From a virus, in IMG/VR virus record IMGVR_UViG_3300042305_000014, positions 1 to 30,641 of that record: a stretch of 30,641 bases of DNA; one strand, given 5' to 3'. Made by a program: the position numbers and the translations under genes. Below the pieces are notes generated by a model. The model had not been told where the DNA came from and searched no databases. It saw nothing but the letters and a program-made list of their open reading frames with translations. Within the stretch, counting starts at the first letter, position 1. The number at the start of each line of letters is the position of its first letter. This document shows, piece after piece, positions 1,309-30,200 of this stretch.

Positions 1309-1791
1309 TTAATAGTATTCGAGAGGCCCATCAGGGCCAGCAGTAACAGGGTTGGCTGGTGGTCTGATAAACGGATTATCGTAGACCCTCCAAGGCTTAT
1401 TGCCAGCACCAGCAGGCATTGTTGCCGGAAGTTGCTGTTCAAGCGGGAATGTGGCTCTTTGTAACAGAATGTCGTAACCTTGCTTGGCAGTGGTCTTGGT
1501 CTCAATCATTACTTGCTTGCCAAAACTTGGGGCAAGCCTAATGCCAAGACTACAAATAATGGCCTCGTAAGCCGAGTCAGGCACGAGGGTTTCTTCATCT
1601 AAGCTACTGTCTTGTGGGCTGGATGGCAAAGGGTAACCCAAGCGGATACCCTTGGCGTTCCAGTCTGCCATCATTGCATCTAATCTACGCAAGGCAGATT
1701 CAAGCTGTTCAGGCTGTAAATCGAACACGTAAGACGCTAACCCGATTTCCTCAAAGGCTGCGCTTATGAATTGTCGTTTTCTATAGCCCAT
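1309..1791 (-). CDS. P22 gp4-like head completion / head-to-tail adaptor
   Basis: A 160-residue protein close in length to P22 gp4 (166). The segment AAFEEIGLASYVFDLQPEQL followed by LRRLDAMMADWNAKGIRLGY is the recognisable core of this family, with a central EAIICSLGIRLAPSFGK helix. In P22 gp4 binds under the portal, closes the filled head, and receives gp10. A good ribosome site (TGAGGA, about 6 bases upstream) supports the start at 1791. It overlaps the previous gene by 28 bases. Family assignment is by pattern and position downstream of the coat gene. Confidence 0.8.
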   Translation of the reverse strand: MGYRKRQFISAAFEEIGLASYVFDLQPEQLESALRRLDAMMADWNAKGIRLGYPLPSSPQDSSLDEETLVPDSAYEAIICSLGIRLAPSFGKQVMIETKTTAKQGYDILLQRATFPLEQQLPATMPAGAGNKPWRVYDNPFIRPPANPVTAGPDGPLEYY

Positions 1792-4233: not shown

Positions 4234-5079
4234 TTATTTGGATGCTGATCGTTTCTGCGATTTGTACTGAATGACTTTCGTCATGTTGCCAGTACGAGCC
4301 GCTTCTTCTCTCAGCCGTTCAAGTGTTGAGTCAACCGCACCAGATGATCTTCCAGTTCCTGTAACGATACGCTCTGGGGCGGGTGCTTGCCTGCGATTTG
4401 TAACTTTCAAGTCTTTCTCCAGTTTTGCTACCGCAAAGGCAAACTTTACGGGGTCTTTGATTTCAGCCAACTCTTTAGCCTTTGCAGGGTTTTTGCCGAG
4501 TGCGTAAACAACGAGTGCAGGATTATCTGCACCTTGCAGCAAAACGCCTTGCTGGGTGATAGAAAAAACTTGTTGAGCAACTTCTTCAGCATCCTCAAAG
4601 TCTTTCACTCTTAGCTCGGCTTTCGCCTTGCCATAACCATCCAACTTGGCTTGCCATGCCTTTTGCTGATTCATAACTTCAGCTTCTTGCTTGGCGTTGA
4701 TTTCATCGGCCTGACGCTTGCGCTCAAACCAACTTGTCAATGCTTCCTCGTATGCATCAGCGTCATAGTCGTGATCTTCTAGCTTTGGCTTATTTCCAAT
4801 CACCACTGGCTTGGTCTCAGGTGGTGCAGCTTGTACCCTTGCTTGCAGTTCACGATTCTGCCTTTGCAGTTCTCGGTTCGTCTTACGCAACTCTTTTACC
4901 CATTCAGGCGCAGGAGTATGTTCTTCGGGAGATGGCGCTTCCTCACCAATGCTGACAACAACTTCTTCGGTATCTTCTGGTTCAATCTCATCAACGGGTT
5001 CGTTGACTTCGATTTCTTCTTCTATTACCTCGACTTCATTGTCCTCAATTACTGCCTTTTGATTCATCTTTGACCCCAT
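4234..5079 (-). CDS. Scaffolding protein
   Basis: A 281-residue, highly charged protein between portal and coat genes, the scaffold position in P22-like phages (P22 gp8, 303 residues). The N-terminus is very acidic (VIEEEIEVNEPVDEIEPEDT). A coiled-coil heptad stretch follows (WVKELRKTNRELQRQNRELQ, residues about 60-80), then a long helical middle. The C-terminus is basic (QYKSQKRSASK), as expected for the coat-binding end of P22 scaffold. Start may be 5079 or 5067 (MNQKAV); ribosome sites are weak for both. Confidence 0.75.
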   Translation of the reverse strand: MGSKMNQKAVIEDNEVEVIEEEIEVNEPVDEIEPEDTEEVVVSIGEEAPSPEEHTPAPEWVKELRKTNRELQRQNRELQARVQAAPPETKPVVIGNKPKLEDHDYDADAYEEALTSWFERKRQADEINAKQEAEVMNQQKAWQAKLDGYGKAKAELRVKDFEDAEEVAQQVFSITQQGVLLQGADNPALVVYALGKNPAKAKELAEIKDPVKFAFAVAKLEKDLKVTNRRQAPAPERIVTGTGRSSGAVDSTLERLREEAARTGNMTKVIQYKSQKRSASK

Positions 5080-5138
5080 TCAACTCACCCACTTTAAACG
5101 GCTGGGTGGTAACCGTTGTTTTAATTGTCGCTTGTTTT

Positions 5139-7202
5139 TTACTGATTCGCAACAGGTTGCACAATCTGCCCCTGCAAAATTTCTTGCACTGCCTGGGCGT
5201 TGGTCATCGCCATGCCCTGTGCTGTTTCTTCAACCTTGCCCAAAGTCTCTAGCGTTTGCGCCCGTTTGAGTTCTGCGCTTGCCACGGTTTCAACAGTATC
5301 GGCCCTTGCTTTGGCTGCTTTTGCCATTTCATTCTCGGCTGCGGCTTGCAGATACATTGCGTTCGGGTCTTGAGGCTTGCCTTGCATTTCTGCCATGAGT
5401 TCTTCTGCCTCTTGGTCTGTTGGCTGAACAACGCCCATCCGCAGTAGCTTCTTACGGAAATAAGCATTTGCATCCCCAACGCCCTCGCCTTCCATATTCA
5501 TCATCGCCATTGCAGTCAGCACTTGGGCTGTCTCAGGGTCTTGGGTGATCTGGAGCATTCCTGTCAAAGCCCTGACAGTAGCCGCACGTTTGCTACTTGA
5601 GGATGGGCCAACATCGGCAACCACATCAAATGTGGCACTGGACAGGTCATTTGCCATCACCACAGCACCAGTTTTTGTGTCAATTGTGGGTTGCATCAAT
5701 TCGACCATTCCGGCCTCACCAGTAGCGGCAATGGTTTTCATCTTGCGCTTGTCTTCGGTGTAGATTTCCTTTGCCATGCCAAGCCAAATCTCACCACATC
5801 GCTTCATGCCTTTGGCAAAGTTGCTCATGTAGATAAATGTTTGCATATCCACACGGGTTTGAATTAACTCAACCGCTTTGCCAGATACGCCTGAAATCAT
5901 CTTGTCAGCCCCTTGTGGGTTGCCCAAAATGTCCTGCATATCTTGTTCGGTGATAGCAAGCAAAGCCGCCATCGCAGGTGGGATTTGTGCTGACTTTGTG
6001 TAAGCCACAGGGCCAGAGATTTGTGTGCCGCCATCAGCACCAGTAACAGGGTTAATCAGCAGATAAGGGTAATCACGCAGGTTATCCTCTGCCCACATCA
6101 CCTGATGCCCAGCAACTTGCTCTGGAGTCATGATGGGCTTTTCAATGCTTGACAAGGCTGAAATCTCACCCAACTTGGACAATTGCATATTCTTTAGGCG
6201 TTGGGCATCTTTAGCCAGACGCACAGCACCCATGCAACGCTCGATGTTATCCACAAACCACCGCTTGCCGTACACCACCACGATGGGGATATTTTTGCCT
6301 GCGATGTAGCCTGCATCTTCTAGCACCTTGCCACCAGACATGATGTATTTGCGAACACGCATCCGCTTGACACGTTTTTGCCTGACTTCCCTTGTGCCGA
6401 CCGCCATCAGGGTTTCTTCTAACATTTCATCGTCTGCAAAGTCTTGGGCTGTATAGCGTTCCTCAGTGCCATCAATGGCTTCAAATATGCGGATTACCTC
6501 GGTTTTTTCCTCGACCTTGTAGTACTCAGCTACAAACACAACATCAGGGGTTGCCCAATCAAACTCGTATTGGTGAATGATCTTAGGCCAATCCGTTGGG
6601 TCATCGTTATAGATTTCTTTGTAGCTTTCACGGGTCATGCTGTTGACCACGAAAGCATATTTGGCATCTGACTTGTCTTGCCGCTTGGCGTTCAGATCAA
6701 AGAATACACTTGAGTCGGCATCAAAGATTGGCTCGAATCTGATGCGCTGGCGTTCATTCTCTGGGTCTTCTTCATCTTCGTAAACAGTACGCAGTCGCCA
6801 TGCACCAATGCCACCGCCAACAGCTTCCTCAAAGGCATTGTCGTAAGCCTCATCAGCCACCGATGCTTGTTCGTCAGCACGATAAAGGCCATCGCAGACT
6901 TCAGCCAGTTTGTCGTTCTCAGTCCCGTCTTTGCTCACATAGTCAACGGTGATGCGATTATTTCGGTATTCGTTAACGATGCGAATGACCGCCAACATGA
7001 TTTTGTTGACTTCAAACTTGGGCTTGTTTTCGTACTGATCCCACAATGGCCCTTCCCACTGAGAGCCGCACAACGAGTAAAAACGCCTGTCTTGTAGGCA
7101 TTGCAGACGCTCATCCCGCAGCGCAGTTTGTATATCATTAAACTGCCGCAGTGCTTCAGCGTGTAAATTTGCAAGGCGTTGGTCGTTGGGTATTCGTGCC
7201 AT
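5139..7202 (-). CDS. Portal protein, P22 gp1-like
   Basis: A 687-residue protein (P22 portal 725). The N-terminal region carries the pattern RRFYSLCGSQWEGP and KPKFEVNKIMLAVIRIVNEY followed by RNNRITVDYV, typical of P22-type portals. A long Ala/Gln/Glu-rich helical C-terminus (residues about 590-687) corresponds to the barrel. The twelve-subunit ring is the DNA entry and exit channel, binds the terminase during packaging and gp4 afterwards. It starts 23 bases after the large terminase stop, with AAGGAC as ribosome site. Confidence 0.85.
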   Translation of the reverse strand: MARIPNDQRLANLHAEALRQFNDIQTALRDERLQCLQDRRFYSLCGSQWEGPLWDQYENKPKFEVNKIMLAVIRIVNEYRNNRITVDYVSKDGTENDKLAEVCDGLYRADEQASVADEAYDNAFEEAVGGGIGAWRLRTVYEDEEDPENERQRIRFEPIFDADSSVFFDLNAKRQDKSDAKYAFVVNSMTRESYKEIYNDDPTDWPKIIHQYEFDWATPDVVFVAEYYKVEEKTEVIRIFEAIDGTEERYTAQDFADDEMLEETLMAVGTREVRQKRVKRMRVRKYIMSGGKVLEDAGYIAGKNIPIVVVYGKRWFVDNIERCMGAVRLAKDAQRLKNMQLSKLGEISALSSIEKPIMTPEQVAGHQVMWAEDNLRDYPYLLINPVTGADGGTQISGPVAYTKSAQIPPAMAALLAITEQDMQDILGNPQGADKMISGVSGKAVELIQTRVDMQTFIYMSNFAKGMKRCGEIWLGMAKEIYTEDKRKMKTIAATGEAGMVELMQPTIDTKTGAVVMANDLSSATFDVVADVGPSSSSKRAATVRALTGMLQITQDPETAQVLTAMAMMNMEGEGVGDANAYFRKKLLRMGVVQPTDQEAEELMAEMQGKPQDPNAMYLQAAAENEMAKAAKARADTVETVASAELKRAQTLETLGKVEETAQGMAMTNAQAVQEILQGQIVQPVANQ

Positions 7203-10578: not shown

Positions 10579-10588
10579 GGTGTGTCAA
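10352..10588 (-). CDS. Overlapping small gene in a second frame, TTG start
   Basis: A 78-codon frame starting at TTG 10588, which overlaps the adenine methyltransferase stop (TTGA) and has an AGAGG ribosome site about 8 bases upstream. Residues 2-34 (THHEATAILNRVREG then FSEFVITRALELTGDY) look like a real amphipathic small protein, while the C-terminal half (rich in Gly, Pro, Gln) reads like non-coding overlap. The gene may be real for its first 35 codons, with the rest a by-product of the downstream gene's frame. Confidence 0.45.
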   Translation of the reverse strand: MTHHEATAILNRVREGQQFSEFVITRALELTGDYEEHRSPRMDQALPQEGDGGGQGRSPILVATDSSGYCQEARPSGC

Positions 10589-11253
10589 AACATTGCCTCT
10601 TGAACTTGTTTAGGTTGTTCAGATTCAAATAATTGTGGTTGTGCCGCTGCTAATTCAATGCGTTTGCAAGCAATGTCAAAGTATTTAGGTTCACGCTCAA
10701 TGCCAATAAACTTGCGTCCCATTTGAATTGCCGCAATTCCTGTTGTTCCACTTCCCATGAATGGATCAAGAATTGTTTTTGGGTTTGGTTTGCATTGTTC
10801 AATGCACCATTTCATAACTGCTATTGGCTTTTGAGTTGGATGTTCTTTTACATCTTTTAATGCCATTGCTCTTGAGTAATTTATTCTTCGTGCTGCTTTT
10901 TGTTGATTAGTCCAGGCTAATTCAAAGTCTGCCAACGAAAATCCATCTTGGCATTTGTCCCATGAAAGCCATCCCATTGATGGTGGAAGCCAATCTGTAA
11001 AGTAATTTCCACCCCAAACAATAACAATTTTTCCTTTTTGCAAAAATAAATCAAATGTTTCTTTTTCTGGTCTAACTTTATCCCAATGTAATTTTTCAAA
11101 ATTGTTCCAACCTGACATTCCACGACCACCAGCACTTTCTGCATTTATTCCATAAGGAGGGTCGGTAATTACTGCATCAACTTTGTCTATTGTTGGCAAA
11201 ATATCCAAGCAATCACCTAAATAAAGTGTTGCGTTTCCGATTTCAACTTTCAT
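10585..11253 (-). CDS. DNA adenine/cytosine-N4 methyltransferase, beta class
   Basis: A 222-residue enzyme. Motif IV DPPYGI is at residues 31-36 and the SAM-binding motif I DPFMGSGTTG at 163-172, preceded by HPTQKP (138-143). This order (IV before I) defines the beta class. DPPY favours adenine-N6 as target. No restriction enzyme is nearby, so it probably protects phage DNA. Base composition differs from its neighbours: four 60-base blocks I counted (10801-10920, 10981-11100) average about 32% GC, against 52% for one block in the adjacent cytosine enzyme. GGAGAA lies 7 bases before its ATG. Confidence 0.9.
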   Translation of the reverse strand: MKVEIGNATLYLGDCLDILPTIDKVDAVITDPPYGINAESAGGRGMSGWNNFEKLHWDKVRPEKETFDLFLQKGKIVIVWGGNYFTDWLPPSMGWLSWDKCQDGFSLADFELAWTNQQKAARRINYSRAMALKDVKEHPTQKPIAVMKWCIEQCKPNPKTILDPFMGSGTTGIAAIQMGRKFIGIEREPKYFDIACKRIELAAAQPQLFESEQPKQVQEAMF

Positions 11254-11974
11254 TTAAGATTCTCCATGCTGTTGCCGCCACTCTTGGAACTTGTGCATTT
11301 CCAATGGCTTTAATTCTGTCCACTTGTCCGGGAAGTCCATTATGAGTTCTGCATAATCCGGGTGAAAGTATTGAGCGCAATCCAGGCTCGTCCTTACCCA
11401 CTCCGTTGTAAAACTTGCTCTGTATTCTTGGCTTCCCCAATACCTCTTTTTTGCCGCCCCTCTCCACATACTTGTGACGGGGGTTGGTAGCCAACAACCA
11501 AATTCGTTCTCTCCGATGGGGTAGTCCAATGCAGTCTGCGCCCAACACTCCCCATTTCGCATCAAACCCCATTTTGGCCAGGTCTCCGAGAACTCGGTCA
11601 AGTCCCCTAGAAGTGAGTATTGGTGAGTTTTCCACGAACACGAATCGGGGCTGAACTTCACAAACGATCCTTGCCATTTCTCGCCACATTCCTGAGGCTT
11701 CTCCATCAATCCCTGCGCCTCGTCCTGCTGCACTGATGTCTGTACAAGGAAATCCTCCAGATACAACATCAACAATTTGTCTCCAAGGTTTTCCGTCAAA
11801 GGTTTGAACGTTATCCCAAATCGGGAAAGGCGGGAGAAGTCCGTCATTTTGTCGGGCGCACAGTACGCTTGCTGGGTAGGCTTCCCATTCGACTGCACAG
11901 ACTGTTCTCCAACCAAGGAGGTGTCCACCAAGTATTCCTCCACCAGCGCCTGCGAAAAGAGCCAACTCATTCAT
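11243..11974 (-). CDS. DNA C5-cytosine methyltransferase
   Basis: A 243-residue enzyme with the classical order: motif I LFAGAGGGILGG (6-17), motif IV GGFPCTDIS with catalytic C77, motif VI FVENS (113-117), motif VIII HRRERIW (153-159), motif X AIGNAQVPRVA (223-233). It is short for this family because only about 65 residues separate VIII and X, so the target-recognition region is small. It overlaps the P-like gene (ATGA) and the adenine enzyme by 11 bases. The whole gene is also open in another frame (11254-11970). Role: probably evasion of host restriction. Confidence 0.9.
   Translation of the reverse strand: MNELALFAGAGGGILGGHLLGWRTVCAVEWEAYPASVLCARQNDGLLPPFPIWDNVQTFDGKPWRQIVDVVSGGFPCTDISAAGRGAGIDGEASGMWREMARIVCEVQPRFVFVENSPILTSRGLDRVLGDLAKMGFDAKWGVLGADCIGLPHRRERIWLLATNPRHKYVERGGKKEVLGKPRIQSKFYNGVGKDEPGLRSILSPGLCRTHNGLPGQVDRIKAIGNAQVPRVAATAWRILNES
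11254..11970 (-). CDS. Second open frame nested in the cytosine methyltransferase gene
   Basis: A 238-codon frame starting 4 bases inside the methyltransferase ATG and ending 11 bases before its stop. GGGAG lies 7 bases before this ATG, a better spacing than to the methyltransferase ATG. The protein is Trp-rich: MSWLFSQALVEEYLV at the start, FSPDSCSWKTHQYSLLGDL in the middle, and MDFPDKWTELKPLEMHKF at the end. I recall (unverified) that proteins with these exact landmarks occur in sequence collections, often named methyltransferase although they lack its motifs. Whether it is translated is unknown. It may be a real overlapping gene or a passive shadow of a conserved enzyme. Confidence 0.4.
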   Translation of the reverse strand: MSWLFSQALVEEYLVDTSLVGEQSVQSNGKPTQQAYCAPDKMTDFSRLSRFGITFKPLTENLGDKLLMLYLEDFLVQTSVQQDEAQGLMEKPQECGEKWQGSFVKFSPDSCSWKTHQYSLLGDLTEFSETWPKWGLMRNGECWAQTALDYPIGENEFGCWLPTPVTSMWRGAAKKRYWGSQEYRASFTTEWVRTSLDCAQYFHPDYAELIMDFPDKWTELKPLEMHKFQEWRQQHGES

Positions 11975-13974: not shown

Positions 13975-14165
13975 ACGCAGATTACATCATCAATGAAGTG
14001 GCACAAAATGCCGCCAGCATCTATGAGGGCCAAGACCCACGGGATCGCCTGGCCTATCAAGTCGGAATGCTTCAGGGCAAGATTCGCAGCCTTTGCTACT
14101 TAATCAACATCACCGCTGAAGAACTTAAACAACTGCAAATCGAACTTTCACAGGAACAATCATGA
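13971..14165 (+). CDS. Small helical protein upstream of the ERF gene
   Basis: A 64-residue acidic protein (MNADYIINEVAQNAASIYEG at the start) with helical content and no recognised motif. It is chained by ATGA overlaps to both neighbours, so it is expected to be made together with the recombination proteins. Function unknown. Confidence 0.7.
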   Translation: MNADYIINEVAQNAASIYEGQDPRDRLAYQVGMLQGKIRSLCYLINITAEELKQLQIELSQEQS

Positions 14166-14707
14166 AAAATATCGCAACTGCATTGGTCAAAGCACAAAAG
14201 GCTTTCGGCCCAGCGCTCAAATCCTCAACAAATCCTCATTTCAAATCACGCTATGCTGATCTTTCAGCTTGCGTTGAGGCAGTCATTGATGCTTTGAACA
14301 ACAATGGTATTGCCCTAATTCAACAAAACCAACCATCGCCAGATGGGGTGATTATTGAAACCATCTTTCTCCATGAGTCTGGTGAATCCCTAAACTGTGG
14401 ACAACTTTTTGTTCCGGCTAATAAGCACGATGCCCAAGGTTTTGGTTCAGCTTTGACTTACGCTCGTAGATATTCCCTGATGGCGGCTTGCGGCATTGCA
14501 CCAGAAGATGACGATGGCAACACAGCCAGCCGCAGACCTCAAGTCAATGAAAGCGCCCTTGTAGACCACTTGGCGGCAATCGAGGCATCTACCGACCAAG
14601 ATCAATTAAAAGCCGCCTATAAAGCCGCTTATGCCGCTTGCAATGGCGATTCTGAATGGCAAAAGAAAGTAATCGCAGCAAAAGATAAAGCAAAGGGAAA
14701 ATTATGA
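14162..14707 (+). CDS. erf: ERF-family single-strand annealing protein
   Basis: A 181-residue protein. The N-terminal segment STNPHFKSRYADLSACVEAV (residues about 21-40), the central GFGSALTYARRYSLMAACGI and the acidic APEDDDGN are the ERF signatures. In P22 Erf anneals single strands and helps circularise the injected DNA. With the exonuclease directly downstream it would form a two-part recombination system. The C-terminal 50 residues are Ala/Lys-rich and helical. It overlaps both neighbours by ATGA. Confidence 0.9.
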   Translation: MKNIATALVKAQKAFGPALKSSTNPHFKSRYADLSACVEAVIDALNNNGIALIQQNQPSPDGVIIETIFLHESGESLNCGQLFVPANKHDAQGFGSALTYARRYSLMAACGIAPEDDDGNTASRRPQVNESALVDHLAAIEASTDQDQLKAAYKAAYAACNGDSEWQKKVIAAKDKAKGKL

Positions 14708-15330
14708 TTGAAATGATGGATCAAGGCACAGAAGAATGGTTCACCATTCGGATTGGCAAAGTCACCGCATCCCGTGTGGCTGATGTAATTGCCAAGACAA
14801 AGACAGGCTATTCAGCAACCCGTGACAACTACATGGCCCAGCTGGTGTGTGAACGCCTGACGGGTCAAAAGGGTGAGAGTTTCACGAATGCTGCCATGCA
14901 ACACGGCACAGACACAGAACCCCTTGCCAGAGCCGCTTATGAGGCTTTACAGGATGTTTTGGTTGATGAAGTGGGGTTTGTACCCCATCCCTCCATCATC
15001 ATGGCTGGCGCTTCTCCTGATGGCTTGGTGGGTGATGATGGCCTCTTAGAGATCAAATGCCCCAACACAGCAACGCACATTGAGACTTTGCTGTCCCAAA
15101 GTGTGCCAGGCAAGTACAACACCCAGATGCAGTTTCAGATGGCTTGCACAGGGCGGCAGTGGTGCGATTTTGTCAGCTTTGACAATCGTCTGCCAGAGGA
15201 ACTTCAATTGTTTGTGAAACGAGTCCCACGGGATAACGAGTTCATCAAGCAAATGGAAGATGAAGTGGTCAAATTCTTAAACGAACTTGATATCAAAATT
15301 GCTCAACTTATGGAATTAAAAAATGTCTAA
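14704..15330 (+). CDS. YqaJ-type (lambda exonuclease-like) nuclease
   Basis: A 208-residue enzyme. RIGKVTASR (residues 16-24), HGTDTEP (67-73), GASPDGL (102-108, D106) and LLEIKCP (114-120, E116 and K118) are the family landmarks. The last two form the PD-(D/E)XK metal centre. It would degrade one strand from DNA ends, making the single strands that the ERF protein anneals. Coupled to erf by ATGA overlap. Confidence 0.9.
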   Translation: MIEMMDQGTEEWFTIRIGKVTASRVADVIAKTKTGYSATRDNYMAQLVCERLTGQKGESFTNAAMQHGTDTEPLARAAYEALQDVLVDEVGFVPHPSIIMAGASPDGLVGDDGLLEIKCPNTATHIETLLSQSVPGKYNTQMQFQMACTGRQWCDFVSFDNRLPEELQLFVKRVPRDNEFIKQMEDEVVKFLNELDIKIAQLMELKNV

Positions 15331-18466: not shown

Positions 18467-18664
18467 TCACAAACCTATGATTTTTTTGACCAACTCGCCA
18501 GCAAAGCCTGGGCCGAGCAACACAGCCGCAATCACCACATAAAGCAAATACTCAATGCGGGTCATGCGCTGTGAACCTGATGCAAACGACTTCTCAATGG
18601 CGGTGTACCTCTCAGCACAAACCGCCTCATGAACCGCCAACCGTGTGTCGGTATCCTCAAGCAT
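18467..18664 (-). CDS. 65-residue membrane protein
   Basis: A helical N-terminus (MLEDTDTRLAVHEAVCAERY) and a C-terminal membrane helix (YLLYVVIAAVLLGPGFAGEL). The layout, a coiled domain followed by one helix and a short tail, is common among small proteins of phage lysis regions. Its ATG shares one base with the TAA of the upstream gene (TAATG). Function unknown. Confidence 0.65.
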   Translation of the reverse strand: MLEDTDTRLAVHEAVCAERYTAIEKSFASGSQRMTRIEYLLYVVIAAVLLGPGFAGELVKKIIGL

Positions 18665-19017
18665 TACATACCCTCGCCCTGTACGATGTAAACCGTAGAG
18701 GCAGCAGAGGCCAAGCCACTGAAGAATGACTCACGCTGGAAGCGCAAGACCTCAACAGCACCAGGCGCTAAGACGATGGCGGCAGTAGGTGAACCAGCCG
18801 TAGGCGCAACAGCGTTTGCCGTAGCAATTGCAGCCGTGCTTCCAACACCCAAAAACACCGTGTTGGTGCTTGAATTGATGATTCGATACTGACCTGTGCC
18901 TTGACCATCAAAACGTGAATCAACCAGTGCTTGAACGCCAGTAGAGGCAGAAGCCGCAGCTGGGATAACAACTGTTTGACCAAGGGGTGCAAATGCAATT
19001 TGTGAATTAGAGGCCAT
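18664..19017 (-). CDS. Small beta-rich virion-associated protein
   Basis: A 117-residue, Ala/Thr/Ser-rich protein without charged clusters. Its pattern (QTVVIPAAASASTGVQAL, then YRIINSSTNTVFLGVGST and VEVLRFQRESFFSG) resembles small beta-sandwich proteins seen beside phage tail-fibre genes. Position after the tailspike genes suggests a virion or tail accessory protein. Function unknown. Confidence 0.55.
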   Translation of the reverse strand: MASNSQIAFAPLGQTVVIPAAASASTGVQALVDSRFDGQGTGQYRIINSSTNTVFLGVGSTAAIATANAVAPTAGSPTAAIVLAPGAVEVLRFQRESFFSGLASAASTVYIVQGEGM

Positions 19018-19035: not shown

Positions 19036-19383
19036 TTAAATTGTCATCCAAGGCAGAGCTGGTTCAGTAGCCTTTTGAGCCAACTGACGTATGATCTGTC
19101 CAGTTACTTGCGCCTCACCTTCGTCTTTGATAAAACGAGTAGATGATTGCTCTATGTTGTTGTAGTCAATCCAAGTATTAACTTCTGGCTCAAAGCACCA
19201 GTTAAGAACTTGTTGCTCAGTCAGTTGATTAAAAGGAATGAAACTAGCACCACGAATTAGATTGCGTGTAAAAGCCGCTGATGCTGAGTTGTTGCCATCA
19301 GTGCCTGTGACTGTCAAGTCAACCCTGACAATCAGATTGTCTTCGGTTACTTGAACTTTGTTAATTGTCCATTTGTATTCCAT
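19036..19383 (-). CDS. DUF7936-like small phage protein
   Basis: A 115-residue protein. The start MEYKWTINKVQVTEDNLIVR, a central TGTDGNNSASAAF, and FIPFNQLTEQQVLNW follow a pattern I associate with the DUF7936 family, short proteins found downstream of phage tail genes. The tail of the protein (QLAQKATEPALPWMTI) is variable. Family naming is from memory. Function unknown, possibly a tail-fibre assembly or virion protein. Confidence 0.55.
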   Translation of the reverse strand: MEYKWTINKVQVTEDNLIVRVDLTVTGTDGNNSASAAFTRNLIRGASFIPFNQLTEQQVLNWCFEPEVNTWIDYNNIEQSSTRFIKDEGEAQVTGQIIRQLAQKATEPALPWMTI

Positions 19384-19392
19384 GATTGTTCC

Positions 19393-20901
19393 TTAAACAA
19401 TGTTCATTACAACGTTATCAAAATAAACAACATTGCCGCCAGGTTGCACATTAAGTGTAAGCGTAACGGTTGCTGTTCCAATAGGAGCATATTCAGATGA
19501 TTCAGTTCCAAATTGATCCCATGTCCCAACTGTTGTGTCGCCATCACCGTATGTGGCTAACGTAGTTCCGTCTGCGCTTTTAAAAACAGTTTGAATAAAG
19601 TTCCAAGGAGTTGAAGAAACAGCAGTGGCTAACTGAATCCACGCAAATACAGTTACGAGTTGACCAGGCATACAAGGCTGTGTTTGAGTAACGTTTACGC
19701 CACCACCGACTACAGAAGTAGCAAGCAATCCATAAGTGCCAAACTTTTTAGCTGTTGCACTTGCTACTGCGGTTGATCCTGCTGTCCCGTAAGGTGAAAC
19801 AGTCCATCCTGCCGTTGTTCCTGTCTCAAAATCCCCGTTATAAAGAGCATTATTAAGATGAGAAATTGTTGGTTTAACGCCGCCGCCTAAAGGAAAATGG
19901 GATGACCCAGATGCTAATACTCTGCCAGTACCACCCACAAACTCTCTATATCCTATGGTGTCGGCTACGTTGTAGTTGTTGATGTCAGGCCATGTCGAAT
20001 TAACAAAATTCAATGTGTTGTTGGCTAACACATAAAACAATGGGTCTGTCCAAGTAGTGGGATTTATTGTAATTGGGACACCGAACAAATTAACTGTGTT
20101 GGTATTGTTGTTGGCTGCCGTATTTGCAACTCTGATAAATTGGTACGCCAATGCAGAGCCTGGGTTTTCAATGTTACCGCCATAAATGTTAATGGTATTA
20201 GAGTTGCCCGTTACCCACAAACGAGTATTAAGCAAAGAAGTAGAGTACAGATAAATTTGATTCCCAGTGCTATTGACTTGGAAGTCGCCACCATCTGCAA
20301 TCAAACAGTGGCTGAACATGACAGATTCACCCTGATTAGTACCCGGCCCAAACAAAATGTTCGTTGCGTTACCTTTAAGGAAAGAACAATTCACAAATGA
20401 CATGCGCCATGTATTTGATTCAAAATACAGGTTCGTATCAAAGTTGTAGAACGAACACGATTCAATCTTGAACTGGCATCCGTTTGTAAATGTCGGATGG
20501 TATGCAAGCATTCCGTTAACACCAGCATCTGCACCACCAATAAAAATCAAACCTGTTATGCCGTGGGTTGTGTTTTGGTAATGAGAAACTGGGTACGACA
20601 GAGATGAGAAAACTTGAATTGCATAATTCGTTGTAAGAGCCGTACAGTCAATTGTCACGTTGCCGTTAGCTGCGATTGACATTAAACCCAAGTCAACTTG
20701 CAAACCATTTGCATTGCTTGGTGTTATAAGTTTATATGTCCCCGCTGGAAACACCAAGGTTGTTTTAGCAGTAGTCGCAGCAGCTATTGCAGCTTCAATT
20801 GCCGCAGTATCGTTTGTTGTACCATCACCTTTAGCGCCATAGTCCAAGACATTCAGACATTCGCCTGAAATCATTGAATAAGTTACTTTAGTAAGCGACA
20901 T
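19393..20901 (-). CDS. Tailspike with pectate-lyase-like beta-helix
   Basis: A 502-residue protein. The front, CLNVLDYGAKGDGTTNDTAA (residues about 14-33), is the entry motif of the Pectate_lyase_3 beta-helix family, followed by TLVFPAGTYKL. A long parallel beta-helix stretch runs to about residue 340. The C-terminal 150 residues (ALYNGDFETGTTAGWTVSPY to FDNVVMNIV) look like a carbohydrate-binding jelly roll. Such spikes bind and often cut host surface polysaccharide. It lacks the P22-type head-binding domain, which is a separate gene at 21811-22296. Confidence 0.75.
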   Translation of the reverse strand: MSLTKVTYSMISGECLNVLDYGAKGDGTTNDTAAIEAAIAAATTAKTTLVFPAGTYKLITPSNANGLQVDLGLMSIAANGNVTIDCTALTTNYAIQVFSSLSYPVSHYQNTTHGITGLIFIGGADAGVNGMLAYHPTFTNGCQFKIESCSFYNFDTNLYFESNTWRMSFVNCSFLKGNATNILFGPGTNQGESVMFSHCLIADGGDFQVNSTGNQIYLYSTSLLNTRLWVTGNSNTINIYGGNIENPGSALAYQFIRVANTAANNNTNTVNLFGVPITINPTTWTDPLFYVLANNTLNFVNSTWPDINNYNVADTIGYREFVGGTGRVLASGSSHFPLGGGVKPTISHLNNALYNGDFETGTTAGWTVSPYGTAGSTAVASATAKKFGTYGLLATSVVGGGVNVTQTQPCMPGQLVTVFAWIQLATAVSSTPWNFIQTVFKSADGTTLATYGDGDTTVGTWDQFGTESSEYAPIGTATVTLTLNVQPGGNVVYFDNVVMNIV

Positions 20902-20912
20902 TTAATTTTCCT

Positions 20913-21800
20913 TTAAGCAACCAAATAATTGCCAGAAATCATAAAATAACTGGTGTTGTTCACATCAGTATTAGTAACATCTATGTTGAAGTTTCCCGCC
21001 AAATCAACTTTTTTAAGCTGAATTGTTGATGAGTTTTCTGGCAAAAACGGATAGATTGCGCCGTTTATACCTGTCATATTGTCGGCAAAAGTTGTCATTA
21101 CAACGCCCCCATAGCCTACGTTTTTGTTTGTAAACGGCAATCCGCTAATAGTTGCTGCACCAGTAGAACTTCCTTTAGAACTGATTGCCAAACCAATTTG
21201 AACAAAAATACGATTGCCAATGCGTGTGTAGCGACATTCCCGCATTGCATAGGTAATACCAGTACTTGCGCCACCAAAAGCCAAAGTAACTGTTGAAACA
21301 CCTTCTTCATACCAATTTAGCAATCTGCTGGTCATTCCCGCTTGAGGGGTGTTGGCAGTGAAGTTGACACCTTTGGCGGCTGTGTTTTGGATTAAGTTAT
21401 CAGTAAAACTTGTTGCTACAGAAAGAGTAATGTTATCACCACCACCAGCGCCTGAAGAAAGTTGCGTTGTGCCGCCTGAATTTTTAAGTGCTAAACCACT
21501 AGAGTTTATTGCTTGAACAATGGGAGTTGTAACGCTGGTTGATGCAGTTACTGTCGTTGCGTTAATAGTATCTCCACCCTCTACCCTTTGCCAAACTGAG
21601 CCATTAAAGACTGCCCAATCACCAACACCCCATAATGTCTCACCATTTAAGTTAGTTGAACCAGCAACGCTGACAACATAATAATCGCCTTTTGCACCAA
21701 CGCTTGATGTGAGGGTAGGCGTGTTTGTAGAGGCATTCCATGTGCCTTTGTAGTTTAAAGCACCAAGTGCGTTCGTGATAGATGAAATTGTTTTTAACAT
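20913..21800 (-). CDS. Tail fibre protein
   Basis: A 295-residue protein. The N-terminal module (LGALNYKGTWNASTNTPTLT to LWGVGDWAVFNGSVWQRVEG, residues about 13-74) is a short unit I recognise from many phage fibres. The middle is Thr/Ser-rich. The C-terminal module (SRLLNWYEEGVSTVTLAFGG, then YTRIGNRIFVQIGLAISSKG) resembles the jelly-roll tip of other fibres and spikes. It probably contributes to host recognition together with the spike downstream. Confidence 0.65.
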   Translation of the reverse strand: MLKTISSITNALGALNYKGTWNASTNTPTLTSSVGAKGDYYVVSVAGSTNLNGETLWGVGDWAVFNGSVWQRVEGGDTINATTVTASTSVTTPIVQAINSSGLALKNSGGTTQLSSGAGGGDNITLSVATSFTDNLIQNTAAKGVNFTANTPQAGMTSRLLNWYEEGVSTVTLAFGGASTGITYAMRECRYTRIGNRIFVQIGLAISSKGSSTGAATISGLPFTNKNVGYGGVVMTTFADNMTGINGAIYPFLPENSSTIQLKKVDLAGNFNIDVTNTDVNNTSYFMISGNYLVA

Positions 21801-21810
21801 GGTTTATTCC

Positions 21811-22296
21811 TCAGAATACAAATTCAATGATAGAGGTGAATGGTGGCGCTTCTGTGAATGTTACATTGCCATTCGCAAATGCGTAAGTATTTTGATTTTG
21901 ATAAACACCGTTGATGTAGATTGCCGTAGGTAATGAACCCACTGGAAAAATTGTCTGTGTGCCTGTGCCTGTGGCGTTTAAAGCCAATGTGCCACCACCA
22001 AAAGCATTGCCGTTCAATGAGGTATAGACCACCGTAGCATTCTTATTCTGTACTTGAATGGAATAATCGCTTGCAGTGTAAATACGTGCTGGTGTGCCTT
22101 GGTAGACAAGATAACCTCCACTGGTGCGAATCGGCTGGACAGCAGTGATAGTCAAGGCTGAATCCCAGTACGCAACAATCGGGTTTGTAATTGGATTTAG
22201 ATTGACTGTGCCAATCCAGATGTAACCATCATCAAGCGGCTGTCCATCAGCATCCGCAAACGCTGGAAATGGTGGTTCTACTGATAGTGCTGACAT
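21811..22296 (-). CDS. Tailspike head-binding / adaptor protein
   Basis: A 161-residue protein. Residues 1-105 match the layout of the P22 tailspike head-binding domain: PPFPAFADADGQPLDDGYIW, then IGTVNLNPITNPI, TSGGYLVYQGTPARIYT and YSIQVQNKN. The last 50 residues (GTQTIFPVGSLPTAIYINGV, then YQNQNTYAFANGNVTF) form a small beta-domain used in phage fibres as a connector. There is no beta-helix or enzymatic part, so it probably joins the virion to the separate fibre and spike encoded downstream. Confidence 0.7.
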   Translation of the reverse strand: MSALSVEPPFPAFADADGQPLDDGYIWIGTVNLNPITNPIVAYWDSALTITAVQPIRTSGGYLVYQGTPARIYTASDYSIQVQNKNATVVYTSLNGNAFGGGTLALNATGTGTQTIFPVGSLPTAIYINGVYQNQNTYAFANGNVTFTEAPPFTSIIEFVF

Positions 22297-24222
22297 TTAT
22301 CTATTCTCCAAAGGTTGCAAAGCCTGTCGAACCCTGTTTCTGACTTCACGATTTTTGACGTATTTTGATGCTTCCCTCAAAGCTGTGACTGCTGGTGCTG
22401 GTATTCCAGTTAAACCAAAAGTCATAACAGAGTCTAAAGCAACTTGCAAAGCTGATGCTGTGTTTGAAAAATTTATCGCACCAGGCGGTGCTGTGTAAAT
22501 ATCAATGGCTATTTCGCCAAGGTCTCGGATTTGTTGGGCTTGCTTTTTGCCATATAGACCTTCGAGTTTGCCTTCTCTATCCAAAGACCGAATGACACTG
22601 TTGAGTTTGTCAGGGGAAACCAATGCTTGCCCACGTTCATCTCTTTGGGCTGTTGACAAGGATTTATTGATAATGTAACGAATTGTGTTGGACTTTAATT
22701 CATTCCATGCCTGCTTACCTTCCGGCCCTGCTGTCAGCAAAGTTTTTCTGACTTTGTTCATTTCCTCAAGTGGGGCATTGATGATAATTTTGTCGAATAC
22801 ATCATCAAAGGCAATAACACGCTCATCCGTGCCTCGCTTGGTTGACAGAAGTTTTGCTGTCAATCCTACGTTTTCAAACTCATTGGCAAAATCCTGACGA
22901 ATTTTACGAGCTGCTTTGTAAGATTCACCACCTTTACCTTCAGTTCCAGCATCAATTGCGGAATTGATTTTTCTTGCCATCAGAGACTCGCGTCTGTTTG
23001 TCCAGTCGGTAGCCTCATTGACAAATTGTCTAAGCAATTCAGTATCGTCAATGGATTTTGCTTGTGCAATCAAGTTGCCATCTGCATCTTCTACCAATAC
23101 ACCAAGCCTGATTGCCTCTTTGCGAATTGGTGCAACATTTGGTGCAACGCCTTCAAAACGCTGAACATCTGCCGCAGTTGTTGCCAACTCATTTAGAGTA
23201 ACTGGCTCAAGCATAGAACCATCTTCTCTGGCCTTGGTATAGGCATCACGAATTTTTCTTCTTTGTACTTCTGCTTTATTGACAACGGCTTTATCTACGG
23301 CTTTGCCAATGTCTCTTGCGTCTGCCAACATTGGTTCAGTACGATCAACCATCGCATCAAATTGCTGAATTAAATTTGCTGTTTGATTGCTGACTCGTTC
23401 ACGTAAAGGTGCGCCAGCCTCACCCAACTTGGCAGTCTCTTTTTCAAACTGTAAGTCTGCAAAATTTCTTGTCCTCTGACCAGCAGTTAATCCAGCAGGG
23501 CCTGTAAAACCTAATTGTTCCGCAACCGTTACTCTTTGTAACTCTGCTGGAGTGGCTGCCGCACCTACAGAAACCCTTGCGCCAGCCGCTGTAGGGGTTG
23601 GTGTGATCTCCATACCCAAAGCCTCACGAACGGCTGTTGTGGCCGCTTGTACAGGCTTTGCAATGGCCTCTCCAGTTGCTTGTGCCGCTTGCCGTGTCGC
23701 AGCCGCACCACGCTGGGCTGTTGCTTGCGTAATTGGGGCTGCACTTCTAATTGCTTGTGTGGTTGCAGTAGGTGCTGCAATAGTTGGCAAAACAGGCGGC
23801 AAAACTTCACCCAAAAATTGACCTGTAGCCTGCACCATTTCTTGGCCTGCTTCTGTCCTCGGTTGATAAGTTAATGCCTGCGCTCCTTCTGCTGCGGCTC
23901 TTTCAACCGCACGAGCAGCTTGTGGTGTACCAAACTCACCAGATAAAATTTGCTCTGTCAGACCTTTACCAGCACCAATAATTGTCCCTAACGTACCGCC
24001 TGTTGCGGCTGTTCCCAAAGTCAGGGCAGTTTCACCAGCACCAATAATACGACCTAGCACACTTGGCGTTGGTGGTACAGGCGCAAGTTGCTGTCGAGTA
24101 CGGGCAGTAGTTTCTTCTGCTTTTGCAATTTGATAAGCCTGCGCCACAGTATCAAACGCAGGCGTACCACGTTTATCCGAGTTTCTTACAATCCATGCTG
24201 CGTATTCGTCTGCGGTTGCCAT
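22297..24222 (-). CDS. DNA ejection protein, P22 gp16-like position
   Basis: A 641-residue Ala/Gln/Arg-rich helical protein. It has a hydrophobic Gly-rich segment (TLGTAATGGTLGTIIGAGKG, residues about 68-87), as in internal proteins that enter the host envelope, then long helices. P22 gp16 has 609 residues and occupies the same place, third in the gp7-gp20-gp16 series and just before the tailspike gene. It would be carried in the head and ejected with DNA. Assignment rests on order, size and composition. Confidence 0.62.
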   Translation of the reverse strand: MATADEYAAWIVRNSDKRGTPAFDTVAQAYQIAKAEETTARTRQQLAPVPPTPSVLGRIIGAGETALTLGTAATGGTLGTIIGAGKGLTEQILSGEFGTPQAARAVERAAAEGAQALTYQPRTEAGQEMVQATGQFLGEVLPPVLPTIAAPTATTQAIRSAAPITQATAQRGAAATRQAAQATGEAIAKPVQAATTAVREALGMEITPTPTAAGARVSVGAAATPAELQRVTVAEQLGFTGPAGLTAGQRTRNFADLQFEKETAKLGEAGAPLRERVSNQTANLIQQFDAMVDRTEPMLADARDIGKAVDKAVVNKAEVQRRKIRDAYTKAREDGSMLEPVTLNELATTAADVQRFEGVAPNVAPIRKEAIRLGVLVEDADGNLIAQAKSIDDTELLRQFVNEATDWTNRRESLMARKINSAIDAGTEGKGGESYKAARKIRQDFANEFENVGLTAKLLSTKRGTDERVIAFDDVFDKIIINAPLEEMNKVRKTLLTAGPEGKQAWNELKSNTIRYIINKSLSTAQRDERGQALVSPDKLNSVIRSLDREGKLEGLYGKKQAQQIRDLGEIAIDIYTAPPGAINFSNTASALQVALDSVMTFGLTGIPAPAVTALREASKYVKNREVRNRVRQALQPLENR

Positions 24223-28094: not shown

Positions 28095-28501
28095 ATCAGC
28101 ACCTGATTAGATCGAACTCTTGGGGTTTGGTTTGCATACGGCAAGATGCCATTTACATCATGCTCCAATTCGATATTATTACGCACAGGGGCAAGTGCAA
28201 GCAAATCCAATGCTTGAGCCAATCTTGGAATGGCATCCAATGTCTGCTGTATTTTGGCATTAAGCACAGCATTGTCTACCGCTGTGCTTTGTGCTAAGTA
28301 ATCAATCTGTGACAAGGCTTCATTTGCTGTTGCCGCTGCCGTGTCTGCCTGATATTCAAAGTCAGTTCCGACAATTACTTGAAGTTGGTCAACCGTAGAA
28401 AACAACAATTCAAACTGCCTGATCTGTTGTTGATCGGTCAGGAACTCAGCAAGCTGATCTCGCGTCAGATTTAGTTTGCGGGAAACGGGTGCGGTTGCCA
28501 T
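28079..28501 (-). CDS. Helical virion protein in the tail-needle position
   Basis: A 140-residue protein with heptad-like helices from residue 10 to 95 (LTRDQLAEFLTDQQQIRQFE; ANEALSQIDYLAQSTAVDNA) and a short C-terminal tail. It directly follows the gp10-like gene, where P22 encodes the tail needle gp26 (233 residues, trimeric coiled coil). It may be a short plug or needle, but no sequence match to gp26 is visible. Start ATG 28501 overlaps the gp10 stop (TGATG). Confidence 0.5.
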   Translation of the reverse strand: MATAPVSRKLNLTRDQLAEFLTDQQQIRQFELLFSTVDQLQVIVGTDFEYQADTAAATANEALSQIDYLAQSTAVDNAVLNAKIQQTLDAIPRLAQALDLLALAPVRNNIELEHDVNGILPYANQTPRVRSNQVLIWLSM

Positions 28502-29907
28502 CAATATGCCAATGCTTCAATCTGTGCCTCTAAGCGCACATAGGACACATGGGCATCACTATCGCCACGGAAACGCTGTATGCGCCAGTTCCTCATGTGA
28601 CCCTGCTGAAACCAAGCCAAACGCTTTTGGCGGTTTCCAATCGTGCCGACAGAGATAAACTTTTCCTGTGAATAAGTCTGCCCATCCAAAGAATAGCTGG
28701 TGCTGATTTTTGGGTTTTTGCCCAATGCAATGCTACCCGTCAGGCTCACAAGTTCCATCTCGTTAAATATTGCACCATTGCTCTCGTTGTAGACAATCAG
28801 TGTGCCAAACTCCCAACGCACTTGCTGACCCCAATGGTGGCCTGTATCCTGCACCAAGTAACCGATGCTTGTGGACTGCGGGTCTCCAACCATCCACTTG
28901 TCGTACACCCAAACCATGTTTCTGGCTCGGTATTGTGCAAACCCAGCAAGGGTTGTGGTCAGTGTGAACCAGACAGGGGTTTGTAATGCCTCAGATGCTG
29001 ATGCGTCATAAACTATGGTGCGATCAGGCAAATGCACATAAAGGTGTTCGTGATTCTTGTCGTTTCTGGCCTCTAACTTAACCAAGGCCAATTGAGCCTC
29101 GGTGTATTCAAGAAGTAGATTGTCAATTTCCTGAGTGCTGATCTTTTGAGTAGTTGCCGCAGCACCCACGTAGATGCTAGGTGCTTCATTTCTTGCGCTA
29201 CCTAAAAACGCAATGCGGTCAATAAAGACACAGCAAGCAAATGTTCCAACAACGCCCTTTTGGATTTGTGCGCCATCAATTCTTGCGAATGGAAATAACT
29301 CACCACCAACGTTGTCAAATACCTCAATCGTGTTGCGATTCAGGGCAAAGACTTCATTTCGCAACTTTAGTAGCGCAACCACTGGATCTGGGTCAACTTC
29401 AGAACTACCATACTTCAGCGGATTGACTTGTGTTGGGTCTGACAGTTCAGTCACGATCAAAAATTCACCATCTGTGGTCATAAAGTAACCATCAATCCAC
29501 ACCACATCTAATACCACACCCAAGTCAGGGTCAGTCACTTGTGTCAGAGTTGTACCATTCCAGTAATACAAACGCCCACCGGATGCAATCGCAAGTAAAT
29601 CAAAGCTGTAATCAAAAGTCACCAGTTGATTTGTTGGCCCACCCACATCGCCCAGCACGGTAACTGCGCCTGCGCTATCGATCTCCACTAACTTTGTACC
29701 CATTACCCGATATAACTGACCTCTCCAGTTGATGCCGCCACGATCAATGCCTGGCCCTGTGCCGTTTGCCACAATCCCATCTCCTGGTCGCAGAAACCCA
29801 TTGCTGATACCTGATTGCTTTGGCACAGGCACAAGATTCACTGGGTAGCTGGTACGCAGTTCAGGGGTGCTGTCAGTAAAAATGCCGTTCAAGATAGGTA
29901 TTTGCAT
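28501..29907 (-). CDS. DNA stabilisation protein, P22 gp10-like
   Basis: A 468-residue protein (P22 gp10, 472). The start MQIPILNGIFTDSTPELRTS and then YPVNLVPVPKQSGISNGFLR is the family entry motif. The rest is repetitive beta-structure (LYRVMGTKLVEIDSAGAVTV; LLAIASGGRLYYWNGTT), a beta-propeller type. In P22 six copies bind below gp4 and hold DNA in the head. It starts by TGATG overlap with the gene upstream. Confidence 0.85.
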   Translation of the reverse strand: MQIPILNGIFTDSTPELRTSYPVNLVPVPKQSGISNGFLRPGDGIVANGTGPGIDRGGINWRGQLYRVMGTKLVEIDSAGAVTVLGDVGGPTNQLVTFDYSFDLLAIASGGRLYYWNGTTLTQVTDPDLGVVLDVVWIDGYFMTTDGEFLIVTELSDPTQVNPLKYGSSEVDPDPVVALLKLRNEVFALNRNTIEVFDNVGGELFPFARIDGAQIQKGVVGTFACCVFIDRIAFLGSARNEAPSIYVGAAATTQKISTQEIDNLLLEYTEAQLALVKLEARNDKNHEHLYVHLPDRTIVYDASASEALQTPVWFTLTTTLAGFAQYRARNMVWVYDKWMVGDPQSTSIGYLVQDTGHHWGQQVRWEFGTLIVYNESNGAIFNEMELVSLTGSIALGKNPKISTSYSLDGQTYSQEKFISVGTIGNRQKRLAWFQQGHMRNWRIQRFRGDSDAHVSYVRLEAQIEALAY

Positions 29908-30200
29908 CACTTGGCCTTATTGCGTTCAGAGATGCGCTTTGCCTTGGCTTTGGCATCTGCTTTTGATGATGCGCCCCAAGCCCTCAGACTTAACAGCAAT
30001 CGAGTTGGTTCACCATCCTTGTATTCAGGGCCAGCATTGCCAGCCATGCGAGCCAAGAACGATGCCCTTCTAGGATTGTCACCAGACTTCACTGGTGGTT
30101 TCAGATTCATGCCCTCGGCCTTTGCCGCAGCCCTTCCCTTGGCGTTCAAGCCGCCTTTGGGGTTCTGGCCTTCTTTTCGTGCGTAAGCTGGAGTTTTCAT
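29907..30200 (-). CDS. DUF6321-like small basic protein
   Basis: A 97-residue, Lys/Arg/Ala-rich protein. MKTPAYARKEGQNPKGGLNA, LKPPVKSGDNPRRASFLARM and a final KAWG-like LRAWGASSKADA are landmarks I associate with DUF6321, found in phages and bacteria. It is the third of three coupled small basic genes between the fibre and gp10-like genes. Role unknown; the charge would suit nucleic-acid contact inside the head. Confidence 0.72.
   Translation of the reverse strand: MKTPAYARKEGQNPKGGLNAKGRAAAKAEGMNLKPPVKSGDNPRRASFLARMAGNAGPEYKDGEPTRLLLSLRAWGASSKADAKAKAKRISERNKAK

Follow-up and report, generated by a model that had tools for sequence, protein, structure and literature searches.

The virus record IMGVR_UViG_3300042305_000014 from IMG/VR (positions 1 to 30,641, a stretch of 30,641 bases referred to below as the window) encodes on its minus strand a small free-standing adaptor protein, followed by separate genes for a fibre and a beta-helix spike. 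The adaptor joins a P22-type tailspike head-binding domain to a second domain, the connector, which recurs on a different type of virion anchor in other phages. On the strength of sequence comparisons and structure models, we consider it reasonably probable that the adaptor carries the spike by docking of a short N-terminal spike peptide on the connector, and the fibre through a partner that depends on the anchor. Spike bodies shared between the two types of anchor keep the same N-terminal peptide, whereas the N-terminus of the fibre mostly changes with the anchor.

Separate genes in the window and its relatives

The adaptor gene (21811..22296, minus strand) encodes 161 residues and is preceded by a gene for a 641-residue protein and followed by those for the fibre (20913..21800, minus strand; 295 residues) and the spike (19393..20901, minus strand; 502 residues). 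The original prediction of three separate open reading frames of 161, 295 and 502 residues was confirmed, and all three were found in place on the minus strand. Among the P22-type relatives, taken as the best 80 of 232 (L001-L080), the adaptor is complete, free-standing and terminated by a stop codon at 159-163 residues in 77; two of the remaining three run off the contig end and one has no start. In P22, the head-binding domain and the beta-helix make up the single chain of the tailspike gp9, whereas the window and 77 of the 77 complete relatives encode each of them in a gene of its own.

At 74 of the 75 loci that are readable beyond the adaptor, a fibre starting with MLK follows 9-11 nucleotides past the adaptor stop, the exception being L059, where the fibre starts with MANSKISAL. 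In the separate scoring of gene order, two loci, taken to be L022 and L070, have the spike as the first gene, the fibre that is present there having been skipped by the gene picker. A Shine-Dalgarno-like motif lies ahead of all 74 MLK fibres, and an in-frame stop occurs at most 60 nucleotides upstream of the ATG in 71 of them. A fusion of adaptor and fibre through sequencing error, readthrough or frameshifting is ruled out by the conserved stops, the gap of 9-11 nucleotides and the fibre's own ribosome site. Distant relatives with the head-binding domain fused to a fibre or a spike do occur (MW202867, MW202475, PfAn1, Skarpretter and Aeromonas 4_4512). Two further candidates for natural adaptor-spike fusions, L123 and L140, in which the spike motif lies inside a longer frame, were rejected because they look like false upstream starts.

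An anchor domain and a predicted docking domain

Residues 1-100 of the adaptor (21997..22296, minus strand) constitute, by profile and predicted fold, a P22-type tailspike head-binding domain, or virion anchor. The window adaptor alone scored 18.0 bits against the Pfam family Head_binding (PF09008), below the cutoff of 24, and gave no PHROGs family at E 0.1. A 14-sequence profile, built from the window domain together with 5 close relatives and 8 distant ones, matched P22 tailspike chains at 8e-19 to 1e-17 (1lkt at 8e-19, with 2xc1 and 7sg7 also among the matches) and Sf6 gp14 at 1e-22; the same search returned WceF at 3.7e-4 and monalysin at 0.0012. Likewise, residues 1-100 of an AlphaFold2 model of the adaptor, built from 47 sequences (mean pLDDT, the model's per-residue confidence, 81.6), resembled 1lkt with a Z score of 13.0 and a root-mean-square deviation of 2.4 over 92 residues. 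The proposal that a P22-like head-binding part forms a 161-residue protein of its own is thereby upheld. A scan of genome contigs with the adaptor gave two loci, each aligned only over about residues 1-95.

The virion partners expected for such a domain, gp4 and gp10, are both encoded on the minus strand of the window, by a gp4-like tail accessory factor gene (1309..1791; PF11650, 5.1e-15) and a gp10-like hub, or stabilisation, protein gene (28501..29910; PF11134, 2e-36; phrog_578). Of 15 records that carry a P22-type adaptor, 14 have the gp10 gene as well. Both genes belong to a P22-like virion module that includes a portal gene (5139..7202, minus strand; PF16510, 1.1e-152) and a P22-type major head protein gene (phrog_283). 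In its head-binding domain, its gp4 and gp10 partners and its P22-like portal, the window thus resembles the phages that carry the tailspikes gp9 (P22) and gp14 (Sf6).

The remainder of the adaptor had been described as a short connector. This has to be corrected, as about residues 102-161 (21814..21990, minus strand) form a second folded domain in the AlphaFold2 model, DUF4183-like and with the predicted fold of a jellyroll docking domain of the XD/T4gp10 type. A DUF4183 match was obtained in 47 of 47 adaptors scanned. The best solved matches to the modelled fold are the neck proteins of T5 (Z 9.2) and DT57C (Z 9.1), residues 123-190 of 9d84_B from the phage B2 gp48/gp49 entry (Z 9.0) and residues 187-248 of CBA120 TSP4 in 7rfv (Z 8.8, 1.9 A, 60 residues); T4 gp10 scored 5.7 and T7 gp17 about 7 to 8, where values below 8 may reflect a common arrangement only. 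The matched part of TSP4 corresponds to XD2, because the N250 construct (7rfv) stops before XD3, according to the TSP4 paper (PMC8825819). Comparison of the connector profile (A2) with PDB sequences gave weak matches only, such as a Klebsiella phage tail adaptor (7y22, E 0.0011). By its predicted fold, the connector is a small jellyroll of the XD2/XD3 kind. Its fold supports a docking role but does not prove it, because the lower scores may stem from a common arrangement and the fold is widespread in tail proteins.

The N-termini of spike and fibre

The spike is a pectate-lyase-type beta-helix protein (PF12708, 8.5e-13) with a weak, sub-threshold CBM_4_9 match. Its residues 21-494 match the solved Klebsiella K2 tailspike depolymerase 8iqe at 6.6e-39, and the beta-helix begins at about residue 16. 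The matched part is preceded by 20 residues in the window spike and by 89-120 residues in the solved Klebsiella K2 tailspikes, and no virion-binding domain was found at the spike N-terminus with Pfam or by the PDB comparison with these tailspikes. The N-terminal peptide MSLTKVTYSMISG (20863..20901, minus strand) is proposed as the docking plug, in view of its conservation and its association with the connector. In 43 distinct spike N-termini, from a set selected for the motif, the residues M, L, T, K and S are conserved at 100%, and M10 and I11 at 93%. A spike with the peptide lies within 4.2 kb of the adaptor in 56 of 73 scored P22-type loci, and in 7 of the 73 a single gene, the fibre, is readable behind the adaptor.

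The fibre begins with the peptide MLKTISSI (21777..21800, minus strand), which belongs to the MLK type that accompanies P22-type adaptors; M, L and K are found at 100% of 43 distinct fibre N-termini. No virion-binding domain was recognised on the fibre with Pfam (0 matches) or the PDB (one chance-level match, E 0.94), and shorter relatives of it exist that lack its N-terminal stretch (roughly residues 1-85 to 1-117). The original prediction presupposed that neither protein brings a virion anchor of its own. For the spike this holds, as none was found; for the fibre it holds in part, as none was recognised, yet its N-terminal type tracks the type of anchor on the adaptor (MLK with P22-type and KISxL with Pam1-type anchors). 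The fibre may attach at a site other than the connector.

Exchange on both sides of the adaptor

Swapping of the downstream genes behind a conserved adaptor had been anticipated and is strongly borne out. The spike bodies of 51 complete motif-bearing spikes (50 loci and the window) were compared, and for 76 of the 87 pairs of loci with adaptors at least 90% identical, the bodies past residue 70 are without detectable similarity; in the other 11 pairs they are at least 70% identical. The C-terminal body of the fibre is also exchanged among relatives. The exchanged stretch is closed by a conserved gene for a 117-residue protein (18664..19017, minus strand), located 2.4-3.7 kb past the adaptor in 44 of the 45 loci with at least 4.2 kb there, and a DUF7936 gene (19036..19383, minus strand; PF25590, 1.1e-12) stands behind the spike in the window, but among 45 relatives only 5 have one. 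The protein encoded just upstream of the adaptor (22297-24222 in the window) falls into two unrelated groups in L001-L080, with 61 and 15 members, the window belonging to the smaller. Since genes are exchanged downstream and the upstream protein is of two unrelated kinds, the adaptor lies within a region that recombines on both sides. On the plus strand, the window carries an ERF and YqaJ-like recombinase pair (14162-15330), which might add to the heavy exchange.

One connector on two types of anchor

Phage DSL-LC05 encodes a free adaptor of 170 residues with a connector that is 45% identical over residues 118-161, and the N-terminal domain of this adaptor groups with the Pam1 tailspike head-binding domain (7eeq, 1.5e-13). 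Relatives of this Pam1 type were taken as the best 80 of 396. At the 76 scored Pam1-type loci, a KISxL fibre comes first in 63 and a peptide-bearing spike comes first or second in 66; the locus scoring and the cross-anchor comparison excluded adaptors close to a contig end and those that scored weakly for the connector. The adaptor alignment (A4) holds the window and 46 of 48 dereplicated adaptors, L177 and L193 being left out. Mean identity between the anchor types is 21% for the head-binding domains and 53% for the connectors. Within each type, the head-binding domain and the connector are equally conserved (74/73% and 64/63%). A profile comparison of the two anchor types gave a modest result (hhalign probability 59, E 9e-5).

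The association between peptide and connector was tested by scanning viral contigs for the spike peptide, with pectate-lyase motifs lacking the peptide as a control. Sequences were then clustered at 60% identity, and sites needed 1.5 kb of sequence upstream to be counted. Among the matches listed, a connector was identified upstream in 54 of 78 peptide-bearing spike clusters and in 10 of 90 control clusters (Fisher p 2.6e-15); the unclustered counts are 62 of 87 spikes and 11 of 100 controls. Six of the 25 connector-negative spike sites in this sample belong to loci with a free adaptor at another place, and most of the others have a weak or no connector match.

Because lineage alone could give such a link, bodies shared across the anchor types were also compared without motif selection. 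Among cross-anchor pairs of spike bodies with the peptide on at least one side, it is present on both in 11 of 11, drawn from 7 P22-type and 10 Pam1-type loci, whereas cross-anchor fibre bodies typed as MLK or KISxL differ in N-terminal type in 70 of 88 pairs. Bodies across anchors can be close, with a spike pair at 98% identity, from the set selected for the motif, and a fibre pair at 93%. Since the spike peptide is kept and the fibre N-terminus is mostly changed across anchors, we take the connector to be the probable docking site of the spike, and some anchor-specific part to be that of the fibre.

The window itself takes part in this pattern. No spike like its own was found among 50 P22-type relatives, and a spike 83.3% identical to it, with the same first 14 residues, occurs in the Pam1-type locus L174 as the second of two peptide-bearing spikes. 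The adaptors of L174 and the window are 21.9% identical in the head-binding domain and 58.9% in the connector. Furthermore, the L174 fibre has its C-terminal body in common with the window fibre and starts with MADKKISAL, and the DUF7936 gene again stands behind the window-like spike (4844-5191 on the reverse complement, 75.7% identical). L231 is arranged like L174, except that its contig ends within the second spike. Both loci have tandem peptide-bearing spikes behind one adaptor with a gene for 97 residues between them, the two spikes of L174 being 31.5% identical over the aligned part.

Other loci differ in layout. The spike stands directly behind the adaptor in the Pam1-type loci L096, L098 and L124, with no fibre gene between or just after, and ahead of the fibre in the Pam1-type loci L118 and L161. 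In L257, a single chain comprises the head-binding domain, the connector and a first spike, and a peptide-bearing second spike follows immediately. L263 (91 residues) and L264 (103 residues) are mini adaptors in which the connector follows a short N-terminus unmatched by either head-binding profile; a fibre and a peptide-bearing spike lie downstream. A frame from about 1020 on the plus strand of L203 encodes an adaptor of 237 residues with two tandem connectors, possibly a natural two-socket form.

A proposed mechanism and its alternatives

We propose that the head-binding domain, presumably a trimer, would seat the adaptor at the gp4/gp10 site of the short tail, much like the P22 tailspike, and that the C-terminal XD-type jellyroll would be exposed as a docking face. 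The anchorless spike would plug its conserved N-terminal peptide (MSLTKVTYSMI) into this face. The fibre would attach through its MLK N-terminus. As this N-terminus follows the anchor type, the probable partner would be the head-binding domain or some other part specific to the virion. Whole spike genes would be movable between phages with unrelated anchors, since spikes would need the peptide only. The branching of two receptor-binding proteins from one adaptor is plausible by analogy with the systems discussed below. A broader and more tentative hypothesis, to which we give somewhat less than even weight, is that the peptide and the connector represent a plug and socket shared across at least two anchor types and a few other N-termini in aquatic short-tailed phages, the spikes being plug-compatible and the fibres having an anchor-specific plug that is changed on crossing.

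Several points weigh against the docking of the spike on the connector and of the fibre on the anchor. Many tail proteins share the connector fold, and the neck proteins of T5 and DT57C outrank TSP4 as matches. The AlphaFold2 model is of a monomer and not of a complex, and an earlier model from 24 close sequences was poor (pLDDT 54.0). Among the matches listed, 24 of the 78 peptide-bearing spike clusters are without a connector upstream. Moreover, 17 of the 88 cross-anchor fibre pairs are of the MLK type on both sides, all of them involving L197, and a further pair is of the KISxL type on both. The loci and pairs are related, and the counts overstate their independence. Finally, one trimeric face holds one trimer, so that two proteins per adaptor would need a second site; alternatively, different adaptors on one virion would carry different proteins.

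One alternative is a serial chain, in which the fibre sits on the connector and the spike is carried by the fibre or by the N-terminal part of it. Such a chain would fit the usual order of adaptor, fibre and spike behind P22-type adaptors, where the MLK fibre is the next gene in all readable loci but one. We nevertheless consider it unlikely. The spike follows the adaptor directly in three Pam1-type loci, although these are incomplete and the fibre could be elsewhere, the spike precedes the fibre in two others, and the spike peptide is constant while both the N-terminus and the body of the fibre vary.

A second alternative is that fibre and spike attach independently to other tail proteins, that the adaptor does no more than cap the tailspike site or else bears some other component, and that the linkage of the genes reflects shared ancestry. 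All of the associations are genomic, peptide-bearing spikes also occur where no connector was found, and the head-binding domain of P22 is by itself enough to fill its virion site. However, the connector and the spike peptide are paired across anchors with 21% identity in the head-binding domain, across different gene orders and in the fused form of L257, and the connector sits on unrelated short N-termini in L263 and L264 with a fibre and a peptide-bearing spike again downstream, all of which makes independent attachment quite improbable. That the split itself is an artefact, with a frameshift, a sequencing error or a programmed fusion breaking one tailspike gene, has a negligible chance of being right: relatives with the head-binding domain and spike in one chain exist (MW202475, PfAn1), but the free adaptor in every complete relative, the intergenic gap, the separate ribosome site and the upstream in-frame stops already refute it for the gene structure.

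Comparison with known adaptor systems

The logic of the proposed adaptor has parallels in phages with other anchors. In phage K1-5 of the SP6 group, the adapter gp37 has a T4gp10-like domain and carries the K5 lyase gp46 and the endosialidase gp47 through N-terminal peptides of 7 and 11 residues, and in the anchor-branch systems of G7C (gp66) and KP32 (gp37) the T4gp10-like domain is the docking site (PMC6872550). The window has the same layout of a separate adapter gene followed by two receptor-binding proteins, with short conserved N-terminal peptides (from the motif-selected spikes and the MLK fibres) and variable bodies. The likeness is one of layout; the anchor here is a P22-type head-binding domain, and the whole adaptor has 161 residues.

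In CBA120, the XD2 and XD3 domains of TSP4 bind other tailspikes (PMC8825819). The window connector is predicted to share the XD2 fold, but the docking domains of TSP4 are part of a full-length tailspike with a baseplate anchor, whereas one such domain ends the free adaptor here. Shigella phage B2 has a two-gene tailspike, gp48/gp49 (PMC11654681). The connector matches 9d84_B, whose chain B we take to be gp48, but B2 is N4-like and its gp48 is far larger (83 kDa). Sphingopyxis phage VSN-002 also has a separate head-binding protein of 200 residues, followed by proteins of 157 and 753 residues (genes 39-37), but no connector domain was recognised in the 200-residue protein. DSL-LC05 and its relatives share the free adaptor, the same connector, the fibre and the spike start MSLTKVSYSMI, but differ in the Pam1-type anchor, about 21% identical to that of the window type, and in the fibre start MADTKISAL.

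The shuffling of tailspike domains is well described (PMC10684548), and the principle of an adaptor with docking domains is already in print. The new part appears to be the combination of a free P22-type head-binding domain with one docking domain, and the peptide that is shared across anchor types. Titles and abstracts in open PubMed Central gave no free P22-type head-binding adaptor, and a search there for DUF4183 with phage and tail gave none, neither of which is proof of absence; the peptide shared across anchor types was likewise not found in these searches. If the proposed mechanism is correct, host recognition in uncultured aquatic phages would be built from interchangeable parts with a short and testable coupling peptide, which would explain the transfer of spike genes between phages with only distantly related tails and allow spikes to be picked out of metagenomes by the peptide at their N-terminus. 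A spike body that occurs on both types of anchor would also provide a natural comparison for what a tail must supply to carry a spike.

Elsewhere on the minus strand, the window encodes two slightly overlapping DNA methyltransferase genes (10585-11253 and 11243-11974), one of the N6/N4 type (PF01555) and one of the C5 type (PF00145).
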